In this document: positions 7,463-52,745 of the stretch, piece after piece
Layout: every line of letters starts with the position of its first letter
Position numbering within the stretch: position 1 is the first letter of the stretch
Assembly: GCA_017591395.1 (NCBI GenBank)
Contig: WEDG01004562.1
Span: 153,651 to 217,650, forward strand
Length of the DNA stretch: 64,000 nucleotides
Reading direction: 5' to 3'
Source: Schistocephalus solidus
Taxonomy: Eukaryota; Platyhelminthes; Cestoda; Diphyllobothriidea; Diphyllobothriidae
The notes under the pieces: generated by a model
What the model was told of the DNA's origin: nothing
Seen by the model: the letters and a program-made list of their open reading frames with translations, nothing else
Database searches by the model: none
Made by a program: the position numbers and the translations under genes

Positions 7463-7609
7463 TGGATGAACGCTTCACCGATCGGTTACGGGACTCACTT
7501 GTCCCCTTCTGCCTTGGGGCTCACACTCGAGCCCACCAGCAGCAGCACAGCGACTAGTAGTATAGGCAGATGATTGAGTCCCTTAACCGATCGGTGAGGT
7601 GTCCATCCG
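7463..7609. repeat. CACCGATCGGTTAC module, inverted pair
   Basis: The block 7463-7497 (CACCGATCGGTTACGGGACTCA) recurs inverted at 7575-7609 (TGAGTCCCTTAACCGATCGGTG). The same module recurs at 9407-9432 in minus orientation and in degraded form near 8052, 20443 and 21000, each time just outside a tRNA-headed SINE. It is followed by a shared CTTTGGGGCTCACNCTAGAGC-like block, so it looks like an integral 5' part of the composite repeat. Confidence 0.7.
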
Positions 7610-7647
7610 CCAATGTCAGTATTCCCGATATAAACTTGCAAGCCAAC

Positions 7648-7803
7648 GAGCCTGTGGCTCAATGGTTAGAGTGTTGGATTTCTAAGCAAAATGTCACGGG
7701 TTAGAGCCTCGGGTGGTCACCCAACTGGGGTTGGGTACGGCTGGCTGATGACCGTTAACTTACCAAAAATGGTTATTCCAATCTCGCTTATTCTTGTCGG
7801 CAA
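7648..7803 (+). mobile_element. tRNA-headed SINE-like element, degraded hammerhead
   Basis: The head GTGGCTCAATGGTTAGAG resembles pol III box A, and GGGTTAGAGCC about 40 nt later is a box B variant, with a tRNA-like anticodon-arm region between. It is followed by GGTTGGGTACGGCTGG and CTGATGA. In this copy the hammerhead-like core is damaged: GAAA has become AAAA and stem II no longer pairs. The element ends in the family tail CTTGTCGG. Confidence 0.7.

Positions 7804-7976: not shown

Positions 7977-8040
<64 letters not shown>
7977..8040. repeat. (AT)n microsatellite
   Basis: An uninterrupted alternating AT run of about 64 bp lies just 5' of the palindromic SINE at 8148-8392; a shorter ATATATATA run directly follows that SINE. 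Confidence 0.95.
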
Positions 8041-8043
<3 letters not shown>

Positions 8044-8168
8044 TGGGGCTCACCGATCTGCTTAAGGAACATGTACGTTCCGTTGTGCCCTTGAGCTCAG
8101 ACTACAGCTCTCGCAGGCGGTCGCATAGCGACGTTTAGCATATGATGAAATGGAAACGACAAAGATAA

Positions 8169-8223
8169 GGGAGACCGGAATGGCCATTTCTGGCTTATTA
8201 GCTGTCATCAGCCAGTCATACCC
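8169..8223 (-). ncRNA. Hammerhead-like motif, left arm of palindrome
   Basis: Read on the minus strand: stem I strand GACTGG, then CTGATGA (8205-8211), stem II region (8191-8204), GAAA (8187-8190), the ATGGCCAT mini-stem III, U at the cleavage position (8179), then CCGGTC. All invariant core bases are present. Stem II has two mismatches (CAGCT against AGCCA), so it is weaker than the right-arm copy. Confidence 0.55.
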
Positions 8224-8234
8224 AATCCCAAGTG

Positions 8235-8289
8235 TGGCACACCTGGTAGAGCGTTCGACTCAAATACCAAAGGTCGTGGGTTCGAATCC
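8235..8289 (+). promoter_or_regulatory. RNA polymerase III internal promoter, box A and box B
   Basis: TGGCACACCTGG (8235-8246) fits the box A consensus TRGYNNANNNG, and GGTTCGAATCC (8279-8289) is an exact box B match. Spacing and the T-arm (GTGGG, TTCGAAT loop, CCCAT) are tRNA-like, with a CAA at the anticodon position, but the anticodon stem is mismatched. This is best read as a tRNA-derived SINE promoter rather than a working tRNA. Confidence 0.75.
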
Positions 8290-8311
8290 CATGTGTGCCA
8301 CACTTGGGATT

Positions 8312-8366
8312 GGGTATGACTGGCTGATGATGGCTAATAAGCCAGAAATGGCCATTCCGGTCTCCC
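8312..8366 (+). ncRNA. Putative type I hammerhead ribozyme (best copy)
   Basis: Order on the plus strand: outer stem I GGG (8312-8314), bulge TAT, inner stem I GACTGG (8318-8323), CTGATGA (8324-8330), stem II TGGCT-AATA-AGCCA (8331-8344, five perfect pairs), GAAA (8345-8348), mini-stem III AT-GGCC-AT (8348-8355), U17 (8356), then CCGGTC (8357-8362), T, CCC (8364-8366). CCGGUC pairs with GACUGG over six positions (one G-U) and CCC with GGG, leaving a TAT/T internal loop that could dock with the stem II loop. All invariant hammerhead positions are satisfied, including A15.1-U16.1. Predicted cleavage follows 8356. Two-bp stem III hammerheads are known in Penelope-like and retrozyme elements and act best as dimers (family knowledge). 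Confidence 0.7.
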
Positions 8367-8401
8367 TTGTCTTTGTCGGTTCCATTTCATATATATATAC
8401 T

Positions 8402-8895
8402 AGTTCTGCCAGTAGACCCGAGATTGGTGAGCTCGTTGGGGTACCCTTAACCTGTTGATAGAAATTTCCATCGAATTTACAGTAGTTATTGAGAGAGAGC
8501 CTAAGCATTTCTGAAGGGTGCTGTATTGGGATGTCGATTGGGTTATCTTGCAGGCACTGAGTTACACTCTCACTGATCAATTCATGTGGTATTGAAGAAA
8601 ACAGGGCAACTACGTCGAACGATAGAATACACTCATCATGACTTACTTTAAGGCCGTGGATCTTCTGGAGGAATGCCTGAGAGTTTTTAATGCTGTATTG
8701 TGATCCAGCGGTGAGGTGCTTCAGATGCCGGTACAAAAATTTAGCAAGGTTGTAAGTGAGCGATCCATTGAGTGGTACTATGATCCTCAACGGTGCACCA
8801 GCTTTGTGCACTTTTGGGAGGCCAAATGCACGTGCAATGTGTACATCCGGTGCAATTACCTCTGTCCCCATCCCGCATCGACGACCATTACGTTT
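8402..8895 (-). pseudogene. Penelope-like element, reverse transcriptase fragment
   Basis: The minus-strand frame includes FGLPKVHKAGAPLR, a conserved Penelope RT opening block, then YNLAKFLYRHLKHL, SFDVVALFSSIPHE (RT motif A with catalytic Asp) and VKGTPTSSPISG (motif B; family usually has GTPMGSPISG). It is cut off right after ISGLLAEL at 8402, where the palindromic SINE begins, so the catalytic YxDD motif is missing. The N-terminal limit is near 8895; further upstream residues do not look like the family. It is a truncated non-functional copy. Confidence 0.85.
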
Positions 8896-9194
8896 ACCGT
8901 CTACAGTCGCATTTACTTGCCATCCCCCTTCGCCTCCGACACAGGGAGCCCTAACAGCCACCCCCTAACCGGCCCCAATCCAATTGTGTGCCCATTCCTC
9001 ACACCCCAGTTGATTGTCTATCCTTGTCTGTCCTGTAGCACAGACTGGTCATCCGACCATTTCATTTCTTCTCTGTTCATTTCGTCTGACGACGGGTTGG
9101 TGTGACCAACTTGAAAATTCACGAGTACAACTATATTTTCTGACGAGCCTTTTTTCTTCACTATATCATCTCGAAATGCAGAATTATATGCCCG

Positions 9195-9352
9195 AAAAAG
9201 ACAAGAGAGACTTGAATGGTCATTTCTGGCTTATAAGCCATCATCAGCCAGCCATTCGCAACCCCAGGCGCTGCGGCACCCGAGGCTTGAACTCGCGACC
9301 TGTTGGGCAGAAGTCCAACGCTCTACTCACTGCGCCACTATATCACTAGCCG
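9195..9352 (-). mobile_element. tRNA-headed SINE-like element, hammerhead core intact
   Basis: Minus strand: box A-like TGGCGCAGTGAGTAGAG (9321-9337), an anticodon arm GTTGG/CCAAC around a CTTCTG loop, box B-like GAGTTCAAGCC (9284-9294), then GGGGTTGCGAATGGCTGG, CTGATGA and the family tail CTCTTGTCTTTTTCGG. Upstream on the same strand (to about 9438) is the CACCGATCGGTTAC module with CTTTGGGGCTCAC, showing the composite order module, tRNA head, hammerhead tail. Confidence 0.8.
9209..9253 (-). ncRNA. Hammerhead-like motif in SINE at 9.2 kb
   Basis: Minus strand: stem I GGCTGG (9248-9253), CTGATGA (9241-9247), stem II TGGCT-TATA-AGCCA (five perfect pairs), GAAA, mini-stem III AT-GACC-AT, U at the cleavage position (9215), then CAAGTC. 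Five of six stem I positions pair (one A-G mismatch). All invariant core residues are intact. Confidence 0.6.
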
Positions 9353-9356
9353 CTCT

Positions 9357-9440
9357 GCGGCTGCTGCGCGGGCTGTAGAGTGAGCCCCAAAGCACAGTGG
9401 GATGAGTGAGTCCTGTAACCGATCGGTGAGCACCCAACTA
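9357..9440 (-). repeat. CACCGATCGGTTAC module attached to SINE
   Basis: On the minus strand CACCGATCGGTTACAGGACTCACTC is followed by CTTTGGGGCTCACTCTACAGC and directly by the tRNA-headed SINE. It parallels 7476-7540. Confidence 0.7.
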
Positions 9441-12400
9441 CAATATATATATATAAGCTTTTTCTTTTGCCTTCTCGAAATAAAAAGAGGCTTGGTAAAA
9501 TAAAACTTCAAATAAATCCGTGAGTATAACTGTCGGAGTTGGAAGCATCTCAATTCTTCCCATCCTGCCTTGCAGTCCTTATGCTGCTGATAAGTTGTCC
9601 TACTCAAATTTACTTTCGAAGATGTGACCTGCATTTTAGAGATGTATCTAGTAACCTTTTGGTATTTTCATGATGCTATTTTTTTTTGCAGCAAATCGCC
9701 ATCTCTTTCATTTTATATCCCTGTAATGTTTTATAATTTTCGATCCATATAGTCAAATGGCTATCTAATGAGATGTAAACCGAAAGTTTAAAATGTGGTT
9801 TTTATCAGAAAAATCTATGTTAGTGGGGTTGAAATATGACTTAAAATGCAGCATAATCCCCAAGTATTTAAGTCATGTCAGAGGACCGCCTTTATACTGT
9901 ACAAACAGGATTACTTGAAAAATCTATATTTCACCAGCGGATATTCGATGCATTAAGTAATTAAAATAAATTTTATAGAAAACATGCAGAAACATATTTG
10001 TTCGAACACTCATTTCATAGAAAATTACTTCCTAAAATTTCCTACTTGAAGAAAGGGTAACTTGCTGTTTTAAAAGTTTCTGCTTATGCGATCTTTAGGA
10101 CTATAAAATATTTATTTATAAATCATCGTGTCTGTCCGTTCATTCATGTAAATGTGAAGTCTGCAAAATGTTCTCGGCAAGTGTAAAATTTTATGAAACT
10201 CCAAATACGAGTTGAATAGCTGGTTGGTTTCAAAATTATTCGGAATATGAAATTTTTTAATACCGACTGGTACCCTTTTTGAAGTACAAAGTGTGAAGCA
10301 GACCTTATTTGCTACCAACTTATTAAAAGAAGAACTAATTCGCAGAAAATATACTGCAACTTTTAAGAAAATCTAAAATAAATAGGGAAATGTAATGCTA
10401 ATTAACTAGTAATGTTTAAAGGTCGTTTTGTGTGCAAGCGACCGAAACGAAGCTCATTTAAATGCGAGCATCCTGATATTATTGAAATAGCTGGGGAATA
10501 TTTTGTTTGATAATTAGTATTAAAAGCCATACATTTCAAAACTTGAGTTAATATGTGACAAAATTGCACATCTATTGTATTTTCAAGTCGCTTCCACTTT
10601 AAATGTCTAACAAACAATTGCGAATTCCTAACGACAGAAATTCATGTCGGAATCTGCGCAATCTGTTTTAATATACCGCAGGAATTGACAAGAATGCGTT
10701 TAGGGAAGTACAGGAAAATTTCGATTCCTCATTAGCGGCATAAAAATTGAAGAAAATCGCCTACCGACAGCCTTTGTACGCAACTTTATTTCACATATCG
10801 AGTATTGCTCAAATTTTGGAAGTGTAAGCCATATAAATCTTTCAAAACTGCTGGAAAGTTTAGCGATTTACATTATAGCATAGGCAGATGTCCTTTGCGC
10901 TTTAAGAGGCTTCACTTAAAAAAATACTTTATTTTGTTTAATATAGGTTTTAACAGTATTCACAATATTCTCGACGCTGTCTTCTTAAAGCATGCTTAAA
11001 GAAGATGCTCTGGAAAGTGTTCATTGCTAAGCGAAACATTTTTGTATAGTAACTGGTCGGCAGAGAAACATATGGAAATGTTTAACCATTTCTGTGTGAA
11101 GGGGAAGGCCATGTGTGAATCTTAAGAGGGATAAATAACAACGTAAGGCATGCACAAACCCTTATTCCCTGCGAAGCTACATACTTTAAGCCAGTGCGTC
11201 CAGTTGGGAGTTGCACAAGCAGCGTGTAAGTCTTTGAATTGTTTATTTCGATGAATGGCTCCAACACAACAAAGTATAAATATTTAAAGGTAATCTTTAC
11301 TGCATGGGTGGTTGCATACATCCCATGAAATTCGCAACGTTGAAGACCAAAACGTTACACAAATTTTTACTCATTTTGTCTGCTGGTTCATTAATTATCT
11401 TGAAGTCATTTATTACGCACGATATCTATGCACTTATTTCACATTATTTTGACTCCTGCCAAATGTCTTATTCGTTATTTTACCGCTTTTGCCTCAGCGA
11501 CTCGCAATGCTTATACTAGATCTCAGTTAACCTAACTGCGAAAGACTTGGCGGCATCAAAAGGCATTCGGAAGCAAGTGCAATGCTTGTGAAGAGCCTGT
11601 AGTTGCTTAAAACTTTGAATGTAGCAGACACAGGATAACTAAAGCACTGGAATAAATGCCGGCTAAGAACTAACTGATCATAAATGTTAGTTACGTCATA
11701 ACTTCCACCTAAACAACATAAAAGAAGAACGAGTAAATGGAGGGAAATGTATGGAGGATCAAGGAAACCACTATATATGAAAATGATACATGATACAAGG
11801 AAAGGTGAGAGTTTCGGCATACAAATAATTAATCTAGGTGGGAAGGTTCCACCGTCATGCCAGATAAGCAGCTGATTGGGCGTGCAACGCTGTCGGCAAC
11901 TGCGGGAAAGCGGCGTGGGAGTGCTAACGAAAGAGCTGTTAAGAGTCTTGTGGAGGTTTGTCAGCGATTGTGAAAGAAAGGGGTACCGGCCATTCTCATC
12001 AACACTTGATCCTACCTTTTTAATCCTACACCCGCGACAAGAGCGTTGTCTTCATTCAAGCAATTCAGTCCTTTTTGTGAAGCTTTATAATCCAACGCTG
12101 TCTCTGAAAACTGGATAGGCACTGATTGGATTTCATAAGTTGAAGAAGGTAGGGGGGGCAAGTAATGATTAAATTCACTGCTCCGGTTGATGTTCTGTAC
12201 CTCGTTTGCTAAGTGTTTTGGCTAAGTTAACCCCTTGAAATTCCTCTCGTGGGGTAATATTTCATCGAGAGCAGCGAGTTTGTCACATTTTGATCAGATA
12301 AATTTTGCAAATCTTATAAAACTCGTATTACTTAAAATCTTCATTTGTTATTGGTGGGGATTGCTGGACGTTTCTTATATATGTAGAAGCTTTAAAAGAA

Positions 12401-16755: not shown

Positions 16756-19125
16756 ATGCTTTCACGCCTCCTCTTCCTCAGAAGACTTACAGTGCACTCT
16801 GTCGGGCGTTTTATGTCCACCGGTAAGCTGTTGTTCTTTTTTTTTTCACCGGCGATCTTAGGATGGTATGAGAATATCCTTATTAATCGGACGGGTCAAT
16901 CAAACGCCGTCGGGTTGATAACCCTCAACAGGCCTGAGACCCTGAATTCGCTCTCTTCTAACCTTCTACGCGAGCTCGCTTCTGCGTTGGAGACATTGAA
17001 GGTAGAAGAGTCCATAAAGTGTCTAGTGATCACCGGCAACGAAAGAGTTTTTGCTGGTAAGCAAGTCGTTTTTCATTGCTTTTAGACACTTCTTCACAGG
17101 CTTCATATTCTAGCCTGGCTCTTAGCATTCAGTTCTGATGCACATTTTATTTCGTTACCGGGAGGTTGTGCTAAATGAGTCTGGCTTCTAATTTCCAGCT
17201 TTGTCATGGGGCTCGTTCCGATTTCACGTCTGATCCCTCCTGGCGTTTTAAACGCCTGAAACAGGTATTAGCTAGCTGTTTGTACTTACGGCATCGAATG
17301 ACTATCCCGCTTCAATTCCAACTCAAATCTTGCTTCGCCACAATTGTTTTTTTTTTCCGGATACTCTGTTTCGAATTTAGGCTTAACAACTGTTGACAGG
17401 TTTCCAGGTTTACGTGTTTTACTCCAAATTTGCTTTTTCCGTATTTATTTTTCTAAGCTGGTGCTGACATTGGGGAATTTTCTGACCTCTCCTACGCCGA
17501 CATCTATAGTCGCGATTTTTTCGCCTACTGGGAGCGTTTGACCGCATGCAAGAAACCGGTAATTGCTGCCGTTAACGGTATCGCTCTGGGCGGAGGTTGC
17601 GAGCTTGCAATGATGTGTGATATTATCTATGCCGGTGAGAAGGCCAAATTTGGTCAGCCCGAAATTAAATTGGGCCTCATTCCAGGTGCTGGGGGCACAC
17701 AACGCCTGATTCGGGCTGTTGGCAAGTCTCGAGCCATGGAGATGATCCTGTCGGGTAGGTACAAAACAATTTTTAAAAAACTGCGTGCTACCTGCTTGTA
17801 TAGGTTCATAATTTGTTTTTTTGTTTTCTAGGTGAAATGATCACCGCTCAGGAGGCTGCAGCAGTGGGTCTCGTTAGCCGCGTTTATCCAGTCAATGAGG
17901 TCGTCGACAGGGCTATCAGTCTGGCAGATAGGATTTCTCGGTTCTCTAGTCTGGCCCTTCGTGCCGCGAAGGAATCGGTTAATGCTGGTACGTTATCTAA
18001 CTGCCGCCCTTCCCCTTTGCTCTCACGTGGTTCATTGCCATATTAACATATTTTTTTACTGTTTTGAAGCTCACAACACCACCTTATCGCAAGGCCTGGA
18101 GTTTGAAAGGCAGTCGTTCTTTGGGTGCTTTTGCCACTGTAAGTTGTCTGTTATTTCTGACTGTAAAGGCGTTTATATCGCATTTTATTTACTTTCTCAA
18201 TCCATTATACTTGAAGACAGTGGCGGCCATTGGCCTGCCTTCTCTGTTCGCGCTGATAGTCAACTCATTTTCATGAATAACTACTGGTTAAGAAGGTAGC
18301 AATTTTTTCAAAGCCTTTTTATCGAGACTTCCTGGAACAAATTTGTTTTTGGCTGAAACCGTCGACTGAATTGAACTTTTCTGTTGGTAGCTAATTACTG
18401 CGTTCGATGTTGTTGAGATGTGCCATTTTAATTTTGTTAATCTCATTTTATACATTATGAGATGTGGCTAAACCCTGGCTTAGAGGGTTTTGCTATACTT
18501 GATCGTCACCGTAGCGGTCCTCTTGCCCATCAACTTAAACTTTGACGAGGTTTATGTCCTGCGTCCACGTGGATTCAGCTAACGCCGCGTTTGTGATAAG
18601 TTTGGTCGATTTAGGTAGGTTACGGACTAGTGTTCGTATTGAAGAGAAGCTGAAAAACGCACATTTAGATTGTTCACCATCAGACCTGTACAAAAAAATG
18701 AAAACTAGTAACATCCCTAACGGGGAAGAGGCGTCTAGACATACAAAACAAGAGGAAAGGAGTTTTCATCTTTCGATGTTCAACCGAGATAGATCTGATG
18801 ACAACTAATCGAACATCTCAGTTTGCTCGTTTGGACACTTTAAACGTTGATTGCGGACAGCCCGAAGACTCCTTGATACTCCTATTGCCAACATTCACGC
18901 CGGTTGCCCACTTGTGTGTCGGATGAGTTCTTTCGGAATGTTTTTATCTGCTCGCTTCTGGTTCCATGTCGCGATTCCCCGTCCCGCCTGCCTATGGACA
19001 TCGTTTTTTTAGTTTTCGCACCTTTTCAAGCCTCTACAATTCATTTTTTTCTTCTTCAGAACGACTCGAAGGAGGGCATACAAGCCTTTATTGAGAAGCG
19101 TGAGCCAAAATTCACGGACTCCTAA
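16756..19125 (+). CDS. ECHS1: Enoyl-CoA hydratase, short chain, mitochondrial (six exons)
   Basis: Exons: 16756-16822, 16862-17056, 17458-17754, 17832-17987, 18070-18138, 19060-19125, all with GT-AG introns (39, 401, 77, 82 and 921 nt). The product of about 282 residues (human ECHS1 is 290) hydrates 2-trans-enoyl-CoA in mitochondrial beta-oxidation. It begins with an Arg/Leu-rich presumptive transit peptide. The crotonase fold shows FAAGADIG (oxyanion hole; FA|AGADIG spans intron 2), [16 protein letters not shown] (first catalytic Glu) and [19 protein letters not shown] (second catalytic Glu), and it ends [18 protein letters not shown]. Coding length sums to 850 nt, one too many: exon 5 needs one base less in GGGTGCTTTT to read FFGAFAT or FFGCFAT into exon 6. 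That is probably a homopolymer sequencing error, less likely a real frameshift. No obvious AATAAA was found downstream. Confidence 0.92.
16823..16861 (+). other. ECHS1: 39-nt first intron of ECHS1, in-frame and stop-free
   Basis: GTAAGC to TTAG with a T-run. Length is a multiple of three and there is no stop, so retention would insert 13 mainly hydrophobic residues ([13 protein letters not shown]) just after MSTG at the end of the transit peptide. The phase and homology favour splicing to MSTGWYEN. Confidence 0.8.
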
Positions 19126-20440: not shown

Positions 20441-20754
20441 GGGGGCTAACCGATCGTGTTACGCGGCATAACAGTCCTGTCATATCTTTGGGCTCAATAC
20501 AGTGCCTATAGCGGTCAGTAATATAGAAACATAACATTATGCGAAAGATGTAGGGGACTGGAATGGGCATTTCTGGCTTACTGATCGTCATCAGTCACCC
20601 AACCCCAGGTTTTGCGACACCTGAGGCTTGAACCCGCAATCTGTTTTTTGGGGGTTCAATGCTCTAACCGTCGCTCGATGTTTAGAACGTTGGAATTCTA
20701 ATCAACAAGTCGGGGTTTATAACCTCAAATAATGCACCACCTTAGGTTGGGTAT

Positions 20755-20799
20755 GACTGGCTGATGACGGCTACTGAGTCAGAAATGGCCATTCCAGTT
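20755..20799 (+). ncRNA. Hammerhead-like motif, SINE at 20.76 kb
   Basis: Stem I GACTGG, CTGATGA (20761-20767), weakened stem II (CGGCT-ACTG-AGTCA, four pairs), GAAA (20782-20785), AT-GGCC-AT mini-stem III, U (20793), CCAGTT. Stem I still pairs at six positions; compared with the 8.3-kb copy, a G-U pair has become A-U. Confidence 0.55.
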
Positions 20800-21468
20800 T
20801 AACTTGTTTTCCTTAATTCTTATAATGACTGATTTACCGACTTCTTCTGTCGGTTACAATAGGGGCGCCCACAGATAACGTCAGGGAAGATACGCGTCTG
20901 CTGTGTCTTGGGGCTCAATTTTATTCTTCTTATATTACTGGTCATTGTTAAGATGCTGGTTGAACGTAAGATTGAGTCCTAAGGTGGATGAATTTTCGTT
21001 GATTGGCTACAGGACTTACTCTCCCGTTCTGAATCGAGGCTCACTCTAGAGCTCGTATTGTATTACCGACGAAAACAAAGGAGACCCTCATGCCCGTTTC
21101 TGACTTACTTACCATCATCGTTTAGCCATACACAACCCCAGGTAGTGCCCCACCTGAGGCTCTAACCCGCGACATTTTGGTTGATGATGGCTAATAAGCC
21201 AGAAATGGCCATTCTGATCTCCCCTGACCTTATTGATAATGTGCTTCTGCGCATGGTAGTAGCCGCTGTGCGGCAGCTGGGGATGACAGCAACCACAGAT
21301 TTTGCACCATCTGAGGCTCGCACCTAATGATTAGAAGTTCAACGCTCTAACTATTGAGTGATTTATATGTTATATTCCCGATTGCAAGGGGCGGGAGGAG
21401 TCCATGGCTCTATGACCAACAGGTCGCGGATTCGAGGCTCAGCGCTTGAAAAACCTTGGGTTGGGTAT

Positions 21469-21513
21469 GGTTGGCTGATGACGATTAATAAGCCAGAAGT
21501 CGTTATTCCAGTC
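21469..21513 (+). ncRNA. Hammerhead-like motif, diverged copy
   Basis: GGTTGG, CTGATGA (21475-21481), degraded stem II, GAAG in place of GAAA (15.1 becomes G, which can wobble-pair with U16.1), U (21507), CCAGTC. Stem I pairs at all six positions although three differ in sequence or pair type from the 8.3-kb copy, and the outer GGG-TAT/T-CCC is kept. Confidence 0.45.
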
Positions 21514-21535
21514 TCCCTTTGTCTGTGTCAGTAAT

Positions 21536-41854: not shown

Positions 41855-44340
41855 CTAAAATGTATCTATACTAATGTCCAAAGCCTGATCTCAAAATTAG
41901 ATGAGCTTAAGATAAACGTATGCAAACTTCACCAGATATAATCTCCATAACTGAAACGTGGCTCACCGTGAGGGTGGACAATCGTGAAGTATAACTCCTC
42001 GGTTTTCAGTTGTTCAGAAAGGATAGAGCGGGACGTCAAGATGGGTGTGTGCTGATTTATGTCAGACATGACCTGGTCGTGTCAGAATAAATGGAACAGC
42101 TCACGTGCGAAACTGAAGCAATCTGGCTTACCATCAGAACGCCGGGTTCCTAAGAACGCGAGATCCTGACAGTCTACTGACCACCAGGAAACGATCCACA
42201 TTCAGACAGTAGTCTGATAAACAATTCCGAAGCGTTTGCTTGTCGATGCGAAGTGCTGATTATGAGCAGCTTTAACGCCTCGAATATGGACTGGAATCTG
42301 AACTCGGCACCAGGCTTGGAATTAAACTTCAATCGCCAGCTCCTAGAAGCAATAACCAAACGCTTCCTAACTCATCACGTCTTGTCTCCAACAAGAATAC
42401 GCGAAAAAACATGTCAATTGTTCAAACCTTGTATTGAAAAAGAGTCTGAGAGCGTCGATGTTTTGAACTGTCTACCCCCACTGGGAAAAAGTGACCACGT
42501 AGTCCATCAGTGGGAATATTCGCTCTTCTCGCTCCGATCGAAGCATCACAGTAAAACGCAACATATTGTGTGGATATTTACCCAAATTAAAATTGATGTA
42601 CACTGTTTAGACTGGATGAAACATTCACCGGGTGTATTCTCGCGGGTTGGTTGGAAATTAAGGCCGTTTTACATGGACTTATCACCAGGTACTGCCCTAA
42701 TTCGAAAAAGAAGGTCACCAAAGGCCCCAATGGTTAACAACCAAACTGAGGAGATAAGTAAACCACAAGCGAATGCTGTGGCAAACTTATCTAAGGGAGA
42801 ATACATCTGAATCACTGACGAAGTACAAGACGCAGAGAAACAGGGTAAAAGGCCATGTTTAATAAGCCCACCAAAGTTTCTAGAGTAAGCTGATTAACCG
42901 TGCAGCGGAAAACCTGAAGCTCTTCTACAACTTAATTAGGTAGTTTACTCCAAACAAAAACCCACCCTTTTGTTATCAACGGATGAAGGTGTCGAACTTT
43001 GAAAGGACGAGGAAAAGGCTGAGCAGCCATCTCAGTTCTTTCAGTCACTTTTTACGAGAGAAGCCGATCTAATCGCTGATACCTATAATGTGGAAGAGAT
43101 CCCGACAATTGACTCATTGGCACTCACAGAACCTTTTGTTCTTCAGGAACTATTGAAGCTGGAAGAAACAAAATTGCGTGGTTCTGATGTAATGTTGATA
43201 AAGTTGTTGAAGGAGTTGTCAGAACCCTTGTATCTACTCTTCCGAGCCTTCCTCGCTACAGGCAGATTGCCACCCGACTGAGAGATTGCGTGGATTTCCC
43301 CAATGCATAAAAGTGGCAGCCGGGCTTCGGCAAATAACTACCGGCTGGTGTGTGTCACCTCCATATGTTGCAAGGTTATGGAGCGAATAATCAAATGTGA
43401 ACTGATGCAGTTTCTGGAGTTGCATCATATTTGCTCTGATGCGCAGCGCGTATTCCGCAGAGACAGATCCTGTTTAACATATTTGCTCTTCTGTCCGGAA
43501 CGATGGACCCGAGTGGTTGATGAGGGAATTTTGGTGCACGCAGTCTACATAGACTTTTACAAGGCCTTTGATAGTGTGCCTCACCAGTATCTCCTATACA
43601 ACCTCAACCGTATCGGGTTACGGGAAAAGCTTTTGAATTGGATTGAAAACTTATTGCTTGGGTGATCTAAGATTGTCCGTCTTGGCGATCAACAATAGGC
43701 GAAGATGGCGGCTGATAGTAGGATTCATCTGCGCACCATCCTTGGCCTTATGTTCTCTCTTTTATAACGTAATGACTGCGTGACTGGGTTTGAATTTGGC
43801 ACCACTATGTTTTCTGACGAGCTTTGAAAGGTCATCCACAACGAAGCTGATTAAACATATCTAAAGGCGATTTCACATTGACTAGAGCAATGATCGAACA
43901 ACTGGCTCCTCCCATTTGATGCTTTTAAGTGCAATATTTTACAACTCGGCAGAACAAACTCCATGCACCAGTGAATGTTTTATCTGAACCACACATGGCT
44001 ACGAGAGGTAGAGGCTCAGAAAAATCTAGGAGTATGGATTACGCCCTCACTGATGCCATCGTTTCATTGCTCAAAGTAACAAAATCCGCAATGTCAAGCT
44101 TGTATCTAATTAAGTTGGCGTTTGCAAAGTAAGACAAAGGGTGTTTTAATGAGGTCTTCGAGATGTTCGTGCGACCACAAGTGGAATTTTTCATACAATT
44201 CTGGAGAGAATGGGCTGTGTAAGACCACCTCACCGATGAGAAGGTCCAAAGACGTGCAACCAAGCTTAATCGAGGTCAAAGCCTTACGAGACAGGATTGT
44301 GCAATCTTGATCTGTTTTCTTTGGAACAAAGACAGCTACG
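41855..44340 (+). pseudogene. CR1-like retrotransposon relic B (endonuclease, RT, C-terminus)
   Basis: Endonuclease: SLISKLDELKINVC, PDIISITETWLTV, LGFQLFRKDRAGRQ, VLIYVRHDLVVSE, then FNASNMDWN (family GDFN-AP-x-I-DW; here SSFN, so a catalytic Asp is lost) and LGKSDHVV. RT: GSRASANNYRLVCVTSICCK, YIDFYKAFDSVPHQYLLYNL (motif A) and WIENLLLG, then decay through the region that should hold motif C. The C-terminal part is frameshifted around 44000-44300. It lies directly 3' of relic A in the same orientation, so these are two insertions or one broken element. Confidence 0.75.
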
Positions 44341-51814: not shown

Positions 51815-52745
51815 CTTAAACATTGAGACTCACGCCCAATTATCCTATTTTATGATCGTCTTTGCACTACAACAAAACTTAGATCGCTTGCAAACACGGT
51901 GTGATGAGTGGATGCTGAACCTTAATCTTTACAAATGCCGAAATAATCCGAATGCGGTCAAGTTCCAGAAGGATGATTAGGTTTGAATACCAGTACTTCA
52001 TCAGTGGTCACCCACTCCAGGAGGTAAATATTCTAAAGGACTTGGGTATATGGATAACACCAACTCTCAAACCATCGTCGCACTGTGCGAATATCGCAAA
52101 GAAAGCTATGTGTATCTTCGGCGCAATCAGGAGTTCCTTCGTTAATTTTGGCGGAGAGCTTTTTGGGCGCGTGTTTGGAACATTTATCCGGCCGGTGTTG
52201 GAATATTGCGTTCAGGAGTGGCAACCTTGGACGAAACATGACTACGCTCTGCTGGAGAAAGTTCAACGGAGGGCAACGACACTAGTCAGCGGATTGGAAT
52301 GCCTAGCCTATGAGGGCCGCCTAGAAAGATTAAAATTTTTTCCCCTCTCTTATAGGCAATACAGAGGGGATATGATCTTAGACTTTAAACTGGTCAGAGG
52401 AGTTGATTGTGCTCTTCAGATGGCCAACTTTTTTGAATTGGCAAACATGACAAGTCTCCGAGCCAAACTTGAAGTGCGGGCCAACTTCTTTTCCCAACGG
52501 GTGATTGAAGAATGGAACAAACTGCCAGCTTCAGTTGTTCAGGCTGAAAGCGTTGAAATGTTTAAAAGAAGACTTGATGCATTTTTACTTGATGAACATA
52601 TATTTAGTTGACAGCAATGATCGATATACTTAAACGACTATCGCCATATAATATTTGCTTGTTTTGCTACTGTCTATCTGTAAATAGGGTTTTCAAAGGC
52701 TCTGCCTATCTCCCTTATATATACTGAATTATACTGAATTTTTGC
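51815..52745 (+). mobile_element. CR1-like 5'-truncated copy, well-preserved C-terminus and 3' tail
   Basis: A frame with only an early shift (51952-52611) reads VNILKDLGIWITPTLKPSSH, FGTFIRPVLEYCVQEWQPWT, LLEKVQRRATTLVSGLECLA, RLERLKFFPLSYRQYRGDMI, FFSQRVIEEWNKLPASVVQA and FKRRLDAFLL, then stop. This is the typical CR1/Jockey-like C-terminal end of RT proteins. The 3' UTR ends in tandem ATACTGAATT units at about 52719-52742. The RT catalytic core is missing. Confidence 0.8.

Follow-up and report, generated by a model that had tools for sequence, protein, structure and literature searches.

Here, we report a repeat family of the diphyllobothriid tapeworm Schistocephalus solidus that is probably (odds of roughly two to one) a family of tRNA-headed, non-long-terminal-repeat (non-LTR) retrozymes, with putative transcription, self-cleavage, circular RNAs, and mobilizing enzyme. 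The reference copy lies in a 64,000-nucleotide stretch (contig WEDG01004562.1, forward-strand positions 153,651 to 217,650; GenBank assembly GCA_017591395.1), hereafter the window, in which a motif with type I hammerhead architecture occupies positions 8312 to 8366. The repeat unit, its tandem arrays, the tRNA-like head, the motif, the conservation of its core, the copy number, and two junction sites were established directly, as were, in the places listed, divergent insertions with heterotypic ends (one of each junction type). An original prediction, made from the letters of the window, had proposed a self-cleaving short interspersed nuclear element (SINE) family. A tRNA-headed repetitive family with hammerhead architecture was indeed found, but because its copies form tandem arrays of ∼302-bp units, we regard it as a retrozyme-type element and not a plain SINE. 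The arrays had been missed, as had the frequent occurrence of insertions as divergent pairs with (AT)n at their ends.

Hammerhead motif, tRNA-like head, and repeat unit

The motif was read directly on the plus strand and examined with a descriptor and predicted folds. Stem I pairs 8312-8314 with 8364-8366 and 8318-8323 with 8357-8362, around an internal loop (8315-8317 opposite 8363). The CTGATGA core (8324-8330) is followed by a five-pair stem II (8331-8335/8340-8344) with an AATA loop, by GAA (8345-8347), and by a 2-bp stem III (A8348-T8355, which is A15.1-U16.1, and T8349-A8354, 15.2/16.2) closed by a GGCC loop (8350-8353); H17 is T8356, with the predicted cut at 8356/8357. The invariant positions of a type I hammerhead, on the same list as in the original prediction, are C3 U4 G5 A6 N7 G8 A9, G12 A13 A14, A15.1-U16.1, and H17, with helix I open. 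Every one is present at 8312-8366, and the predicted hammerhead reading proved exact to the letter. The descriptor (CTGANGA, stem II, GAA, stem III of at least 2 bp, U16.1, H17, and five stem I pairs) matched two distinct window sites (8324 and 20761), against one match in total when the whole window was shuffled 100 times with dinucleotide composition preserved. The 20761 site belongs to a diverged relative in which stem I pairing is retained (CCAGTT replaces CCGGTC). The fold stability of 8306-8372 is ordinary (z, −1.68; 14 of 200 shuffles equally or more stable).

The five-pair stem II holds for the window copy and is unusual in the family. Among the 78 distinct 55-nt sequences found in 112 full hammerhead copies, the pair at the stem II base (10.1.11.1; T8331-A8344 in the window) is C.A in 52 and T-A in 8. 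Stem II of the young family accordingly has four pairs, and the T-A of the window is an exception. An optimized stem II in the window copy was considered and rejected; the fifth pair would fit CpG decay on either strand.

The head of the window copy (8245-8311, plus strand) retains an intact box B (GGTTCGAATCC, 8279-8289), and its box A is cut (by eye) at a head-to-head junction at 8244-8246. It scores 27.7 bits with the Rfam tRNA model RF00005 (gathering score, 29 bits). Heads above gathering were found elsewhere in the same assembly, whose stretches carry L-numbers (L002 to L050): L002 (33.0 bits), L029 (32.4 bits), and one of the four listed heads of L003 (31.1 bits), the remaining three scoring 24.6 bits. 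A scan at Rfam gathering of 13 of 20 sample stretches (arbitrary 10-kb stretches from contigs already known to hold family copies) gave two tRNA matches, one to the L029 head, the only family head to reach gathering in these stretches, and one elsewhere in L041. The predicted box A/box B head, which would make the family resemble a tRNA-derived SINE, was therefore borne out in some genome copies (L002, L003, and L029), whereas the window copy lost box A to the junction. We describe the family head as tRNA-like and of uncertain identity, with an anticodon that reads as CAA-like.

The assembly (604 Mb; 8,019 contigs) was searched with 231 bases around the motif; the search yielded 1,221 first-look candidates, and 40 of these were scored. 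The window motif is one arm of an inverted pair derived from a ∼302-bp tandem repeat, the unit of which consists of the tRNA-like head, the hammerhead, and a tail. L003 and L004 are tandem arrays of six hammerheads each, with starts 302 to 304 bases apart; the L003 unit is 303 bp long (GC content, 52.5%) and has no TTTT on its sense strand. The family therefore has the organization expected of retrozymes, namely, tandem units of ∼150 to 450 bp each carrying a type I hammerhead. An exact 35-base hammerhead-core pattern, with 10.1 and 11.1 left free, matched 18,078 places genome-wide (9,337 + 8,741), and the reversed pattern matched none. Of 100 places listed from this set, 65 fell in clusters of two or more and 35 stood alone; of 42 gaps shorter than 4 kb between same-strand places, 38 were near multiples of 304.

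Units are 99.5% alike within L003 and 98.9% within L004, and the two arrays are 97.3% alike; such identity within arrays is as expected if each array stems from one RNA. Local duplication was seen in L004, where units 380 and 1288 have variants in common (by eye). Units of the older L008 array are 89.7% alike internally and 90.9% identical to L003; differing among themselves as much as from L003, they show no later homogenization. Of the 20 sample stretches, 13 contained relatives, which merged into 33 pieces with a total length of 15.7 kb (∼9.9 kb of it in L045). Positions 1-10000 of L045 consist almost wholly of decayed ∼305-bp units (64 to 78% identity) in which identical hammerhead stretches recur ∼2.76 kb apart, and we interpret this stretch as a higher-order satellite that arose from the element. 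As a separate observation, a young unit in L040 changes to another subfamily inside the tRNA head (2934-2941), possibly a template switch.

Insertion ends and divergent pairs

Nine young pieces (at least 88% identical to the unit) were counted by hand in the window and the 20 stretches. Eight of them stop at either of two unit positions, each inside TCATCATAT, with (AT)n directly after (three at site 1 and five at site 2 or its variants), and their opposite ends vary; the ninth (L040, 2751-2934) runs into another subfamily. Copies L002-L028 were left out of this count because their query included the (AT) end. Genome-wide, exact (AT)n junctions numbered 781 at site 1 and 1,101 at site 2, compared with 6 at a control position in another part of the unit and none for the reversed junction patterns; the site 2 variant is a rarer end type (24 exact junctions). 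In the window and the 20 stretches, (AT)5 or longer runs abut the family 3′ end in 13 of 21 cases (hand count).

The window copy illustrates this arrangement. Its right arm (8234-8394, plus strand; unit positions u8-169 by BLAST, the first bases of which overlap the left arm in the alignment) ends at site 1, CATTTCAT, and a short (AT)5 run (8389-8398) comes next. The inverted left arm (8038-8246, minus strand; u63-271 by BLAST) ends at a site 2 variant adjoining an (AT)31 microsatellite (7978-8039), and its hammerhead stretch (8158-8228) does not pass the descriptor. The pair is therefore heterotypic (site 2 variant at 8045; site 1 at 8382).

Divergent orientation is common among close neighbors. 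Opposite-strand neighbors within 300 bp were head-to-head in 13 cases and tail-to-tail in 3 (hand count, window and 20 stretches), and among the 100 hammerhead-core places listed, close opposite-strand neighbors numbered 4 and 2, respectively. Pairs were further analyzed on contigs up to C389, for which 58 of the 781 site 1 junctions and 99 of the 1,101 site 2 junctions were listed. Of 14 divergent pairs within 1 kb, 13 were heterotypic, 1 joined site 2 with site 2, and none joined site 1 with site 1; the other neighbors within 1 kb were one convergent and one same-strand pair. Independence predicts ∼47% heterotypic pairs, under which at least 13 of 14 has a probability of ∼4 in 10,000 (calculated by hand). 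Such pairs are most simply read as the outcome of priming by the two strands of a single (AT)n target on one RNA, each strand at a different site. Tentatively, and at clearly less than even odds, we propose that every divergent insertion preserves an instance of target priming by both strands on a single circular hammerhead RNA via its two TCATCATAT sites.

Sequences outside the family were also seen to end exactly at (AT)n runs (L002, 2180; L031, 3443 and 3464; L006, 1710; and L029, 92). Two end sequences recur among these, and several repeats seem to use an (AT)n target.

Conservation of the hammerhead core, proposed mechanism, and rival explanations

In the 78 distinct copies, agreement with the consensus was 92.6% at 11 core positions, 82.4% in the stems, 78.8% in loop III, and 88.4% in the 8 downstream bases. 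Twenty-eight diverged copies were 84% identical to the unit across the hammerhead region and 92% in the core, compared with 49 to 68% in head segments, 66% at u141-160, and 35 to 48% in tail segments, a comparison that favors hammerhead conservation because the copies were chosen by that region. A fairer test used 30 distinct L045 units, cut out by whole-unit BLAST irrespective of the motif. Ten core positions defined in advance matched the young unit at 87.3%, against 67.0% over the whole unit. Of 10,000 sets of random positions, 12 reached the core value, as did 41 of 10,000 placements that kept the spacing and 30 of 20,000 composition-matched non-CpG sets; scored against the within-array consensus, the core was equaled by 117 of 20,000. 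The whole core is intact in 8 of the 30 units. It is this conservation that keeps the ribozyme reading alive.

The original prediction had also held that the short stem III would favor dimers, and the predicted folds are in keeping with this. The sequence AATGGCCATT within the motif is a palindrome, and the lowest-energy dimer predicted for two young motifs has a double-hammerhead layout (−44.1 kcal/mol), whereas one strand alone is predicted to adopt another fold (−16.3 kcal/mol). The predicted minimum for the window-copy dimer (−45.9 kcal/mol) lies further from a pure double-hammerhead layout than that of the young dimer. Folded as a circle, the whole unit would be highly self-paired: −104.6 kcal/mol against −84.1 (standard deviation, 6.0) in shuffles, none of 100 being as low, with 66% of bases paired against 59% (standard deviation, 2.7).

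In the mechanism that we propose, RNA polymerase III would start at the tRNA-like head within a tandem array unit and read through, as the unit has no TTTT terminator. The multimer would be cleaved to ∼302-nt units by its hammerheads, chiefly when these are joined across the palindrome as double hammerheads, a step suggested by the architecture and the core conservation, and a host ligase would close the units into circles. The junctions point to a Penelope-like endonuclease/reverse transcriptase that would open an (AT)n microsatellite, with the two target strands priming on the two sites of one RNA. Repeated copying around the circle would then produce tandem units, and joining of the two complementary DNAs would leave divergent arms whose ends differ in type. 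The Penelope-like protein of a lizard, studied in purified form, is described as preferring AT-rich DNA in vitro, as starting inside its RNA, and as cutting and extending both strands, in which it differs from what R2 and LINE-1 have been shown to do (PMC11167929). At the sequence level, the junction pattern fits such mobilization (AT-rich target, internal initiation, and priming from both strands).

Several observations weigh against this reading. There was no Rfam hammerhead match at an E value of 10 in window positions 8020-8520 or L003 positions 355-425, where the models were used without a control that they detect a 2-bp stem III, and no convincing covariation in stems I and II (75 of the 78 distinct copies aligned). 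Both checks had been set out in the original prediction, and neither came out in its favor. The proportion of paired stem cells was 75.5%, compared with 74.5% after shuffling (reached by 12 of 500 shuffles), the covariation score was equaled by 46 of 500, and 450 of 500 shuffles had at least as many pairs with both partners changed. Because most of the variation looks like the decay of dead copies, the power of this test is low. The C.A mismatch at the stem II base is usual in the family. The lowest-energy monomer fold is not a hammerhead, stem III pairs having a probability of 0.00, and the predicted young dimer contains two extra pairs, of A14 of one strand with U17 of the other, positions that an active hammerhead leaves unpaired. 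Most heads scanned fall below the tRNA gathering score, and ARAGORN reported no tRNA in the window or in the L003 unit. In the ∼294 kb fetched, all hammerheads that passed the descriptor belonged to the family (membership being judged from two short strings), so no hammerhead-bearing Penelope-like element was seen there. The two reverse transcriptase fragments that we take to be Penelope-like (at 8397-8964 of the window, abutting the element, and in L005) are presumed so from their motifs. The GC content of the unit, 52.5%, compares with values below 50% given for metazoan retrozymes (PMC7229834), a property that we take as descriptive rather than defining. In the in vivo part of the lizard study, no reads start or end at the presumed hammerhead cut (PMC11167929).

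At gathering, the whole window gave no Rfam match. With E values up to 10, the window region gave 10 matches, the best of them to a tRNA, below gathering; microRNA-type matches were put down to chance or hairpin effects.

The hammerhead-model and covariation results, the C.A pair, the preference of a single strand for other pairings, and the higher-order repeats of L045, with their recurring identical hammerhead stretches, would all suit an ordinary tRNA-derived SINE superfamily, in which the hammerhead likeness is a relic or a coincidence, nothing cuts itself, and arrays grew by unequal crossing over. We consider this quite unlikely, given that the predefined core positions in L045 are kept better than matched positions, that the core of the 28 diverged copies is 92% identical when their heads and tails reach 35 to 68% (although these were picked by the hammerhead and are a favorable sample), and that the architecture arose only once in 100 shuffled windows. 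The units could instead be satellite DNA that happens to contain a hammerhead and spread without RNA, by recombination between (AT)n tracts. The tracts flanking copies could indeed recombine, and L045 amounts to almost 10 kb of decayed units, but young copies end at two internal sites and vary at the opposite end, divergent pairs are heterotypic, and L008 gives no sign of ongoing homogenization, all of which makes this explanation very improbable.

The same self-cleaving element might also be moved not by a Penelope-like enzyme but by a long interspersed nuclear element (LINE), through twin priming. Twin priming yields divergent insertions, and LINE-type reverse transcriptase pieces are present in the window; against this, a similar (AT)n run marks the end of the L005 reverse transcriptase fragment, which we read as Penelope-type. 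We regard movement by a LINE as unlikely and continue to favor a retrozyme-type element mobilized by a Penelope-like enzyme.

Related elements, neighboring features, and implications

The predicted likeness to the Sm-alpha repeat of schistosomes was upheld, as both are tRNA-headed repeats with a hammerhead. Sm-alpha and Sj-alpha are likewise high-copy flatworm repeats that combine tRNA-related sequence with a type I hammerhead. Sm-alpha has been linked to tRNA-Gln-TTG (PMC2770079), and a full tRNA-Gln is described in schistosome hammerhead repeats in a paper in which a figure legend gives tRNA-Glu (PMC4918200). Compared by description and not by sequence alignment, the tapeworm family differs in its 2-bp stem III with a GGCC loop, its weak tRNA match, its (AT)n ends, and its divergent pairs. 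With the metazoan non-LTR retrozymes described from coral, mussel, and axolotl, it shares a type I hammerhead, tandem repeats (170 to 400 bp in those animals), thousands of copies, and a highly self-paired unit (PMC7229834). The axolotl hammerhead HHR_Amex2 is reported to carry a tetraloop on a stem III of 2 bp, to be mismatched at the helix II base, and to cut better as a dimer (PMC7229834); the short stem III and the mismatch recur in the tapeworm, whereas the two (AT)n insertion sites set the family apart from metazoan retrozymes. Penelope-like elements with minimal hammerheads are similar in their tandem organization, AT-rich targets, RNA-internal priming, and extension of both target strands, as described in PMC11167929, but the 302-bp tapeworm unit is too short for their protein. 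Overall, the family resembles a metazoan retrozyme with a tRNA-like part as in the schistosome repeats, and it stands apart by its GC content, its stem II base, and its pattern of insertion. Its membership is putative, and we do not call it a proven retrozyme, because the Rfam test failed and cleavage and circles are only predicted. Among the best-ranked matches to literature searches on hammerhead ribozymes of tapeworms, cestodes, and four diphyllobothriid genera (preprints and supplements lying outside their scope), no account of the family was found.

Other family copies in the window are diverged. A relative at 7578-7800 (plus strand) has another tRNA-like head (by eye) and a degenerate hammerhead, with AAAA for GAAA. 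Three head-to-head arrangements follow: a relative at 9192-9338 (minus strand) with a tail fragment at 9351-9448 (plus strand) adjoining (AT)6; a relative at 20544-20666 (minus strand) with the copy at 20668-20810 (plus strand) that passes the descriptor (C3 at 20761) and has C.A at its stem II base; and a relative at 21065-21177 (minus strand) with one or more relatives at 21178-21532 (plus strand).

The open reading frame (ORF) with the reverse transcriptase fragment that abuts the window element (8397-8964, minus strand) had 15 protein matches, the best seven being Sparganum, Spirometra, and Schistocephalus proteins 65 to 77% identical over 70 to 79% of the query. Precomputed domains on these matches were PF28514 (14 of 15) and PF00078 (4 of 15); a Pfam scan of the ORF itself found no family, and a PDB search with it gave nothing up to an E value of 1. 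Further reverse transcriptase pieces lie at 43282-43665 (matching RVT_1) and at 51919-52611 (six best matches, Spirometra and Sparganum proteins at 47 to 51% identity), and an exon-like ORF at 17457-17831 encodes an enoyl-CoA hydratase segment (PF00378; E value, 8.8e-37). Elsewhere in the assembly, COX1-bearing contigs were encountered (C589, C6369, C1080, C5997, C7083, C6182, and C5619), two of which score alike and one of which differs; some are degraded, with in-frame TAG/TAA, and may be mitochondrial variants, nuclear copies, or contamination. In L050, a sequence read as nad3 precedes COX1.

The family bears on two questions, namely, which enzyme moves animal hammerhead retrozymes and how they are transcribed. 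Penelope-like elements have been proposed as candidate movers of animal retrozymes (PMC7229834); one account notes no evident promoter for retrozymes (PMC7761336), and a promoter is reported for a plant retrozyme (PMC12029980). The tapeworm family has a tRNA-type head within the unit and young copies by the thousand, the signature at its junctions allows a direct test of which enzyme is involved, and the siting of its copies in AT repeats suggests how ribozyme-bearing elements insert. If the proposed reading is true, the element would bring its own polymerase III promoter, Penelope-like enzymes would mobilize metazoan retrozymes, and the ∼1,900 readable exact junctions would amount to a genome-scale assay of the reaction.
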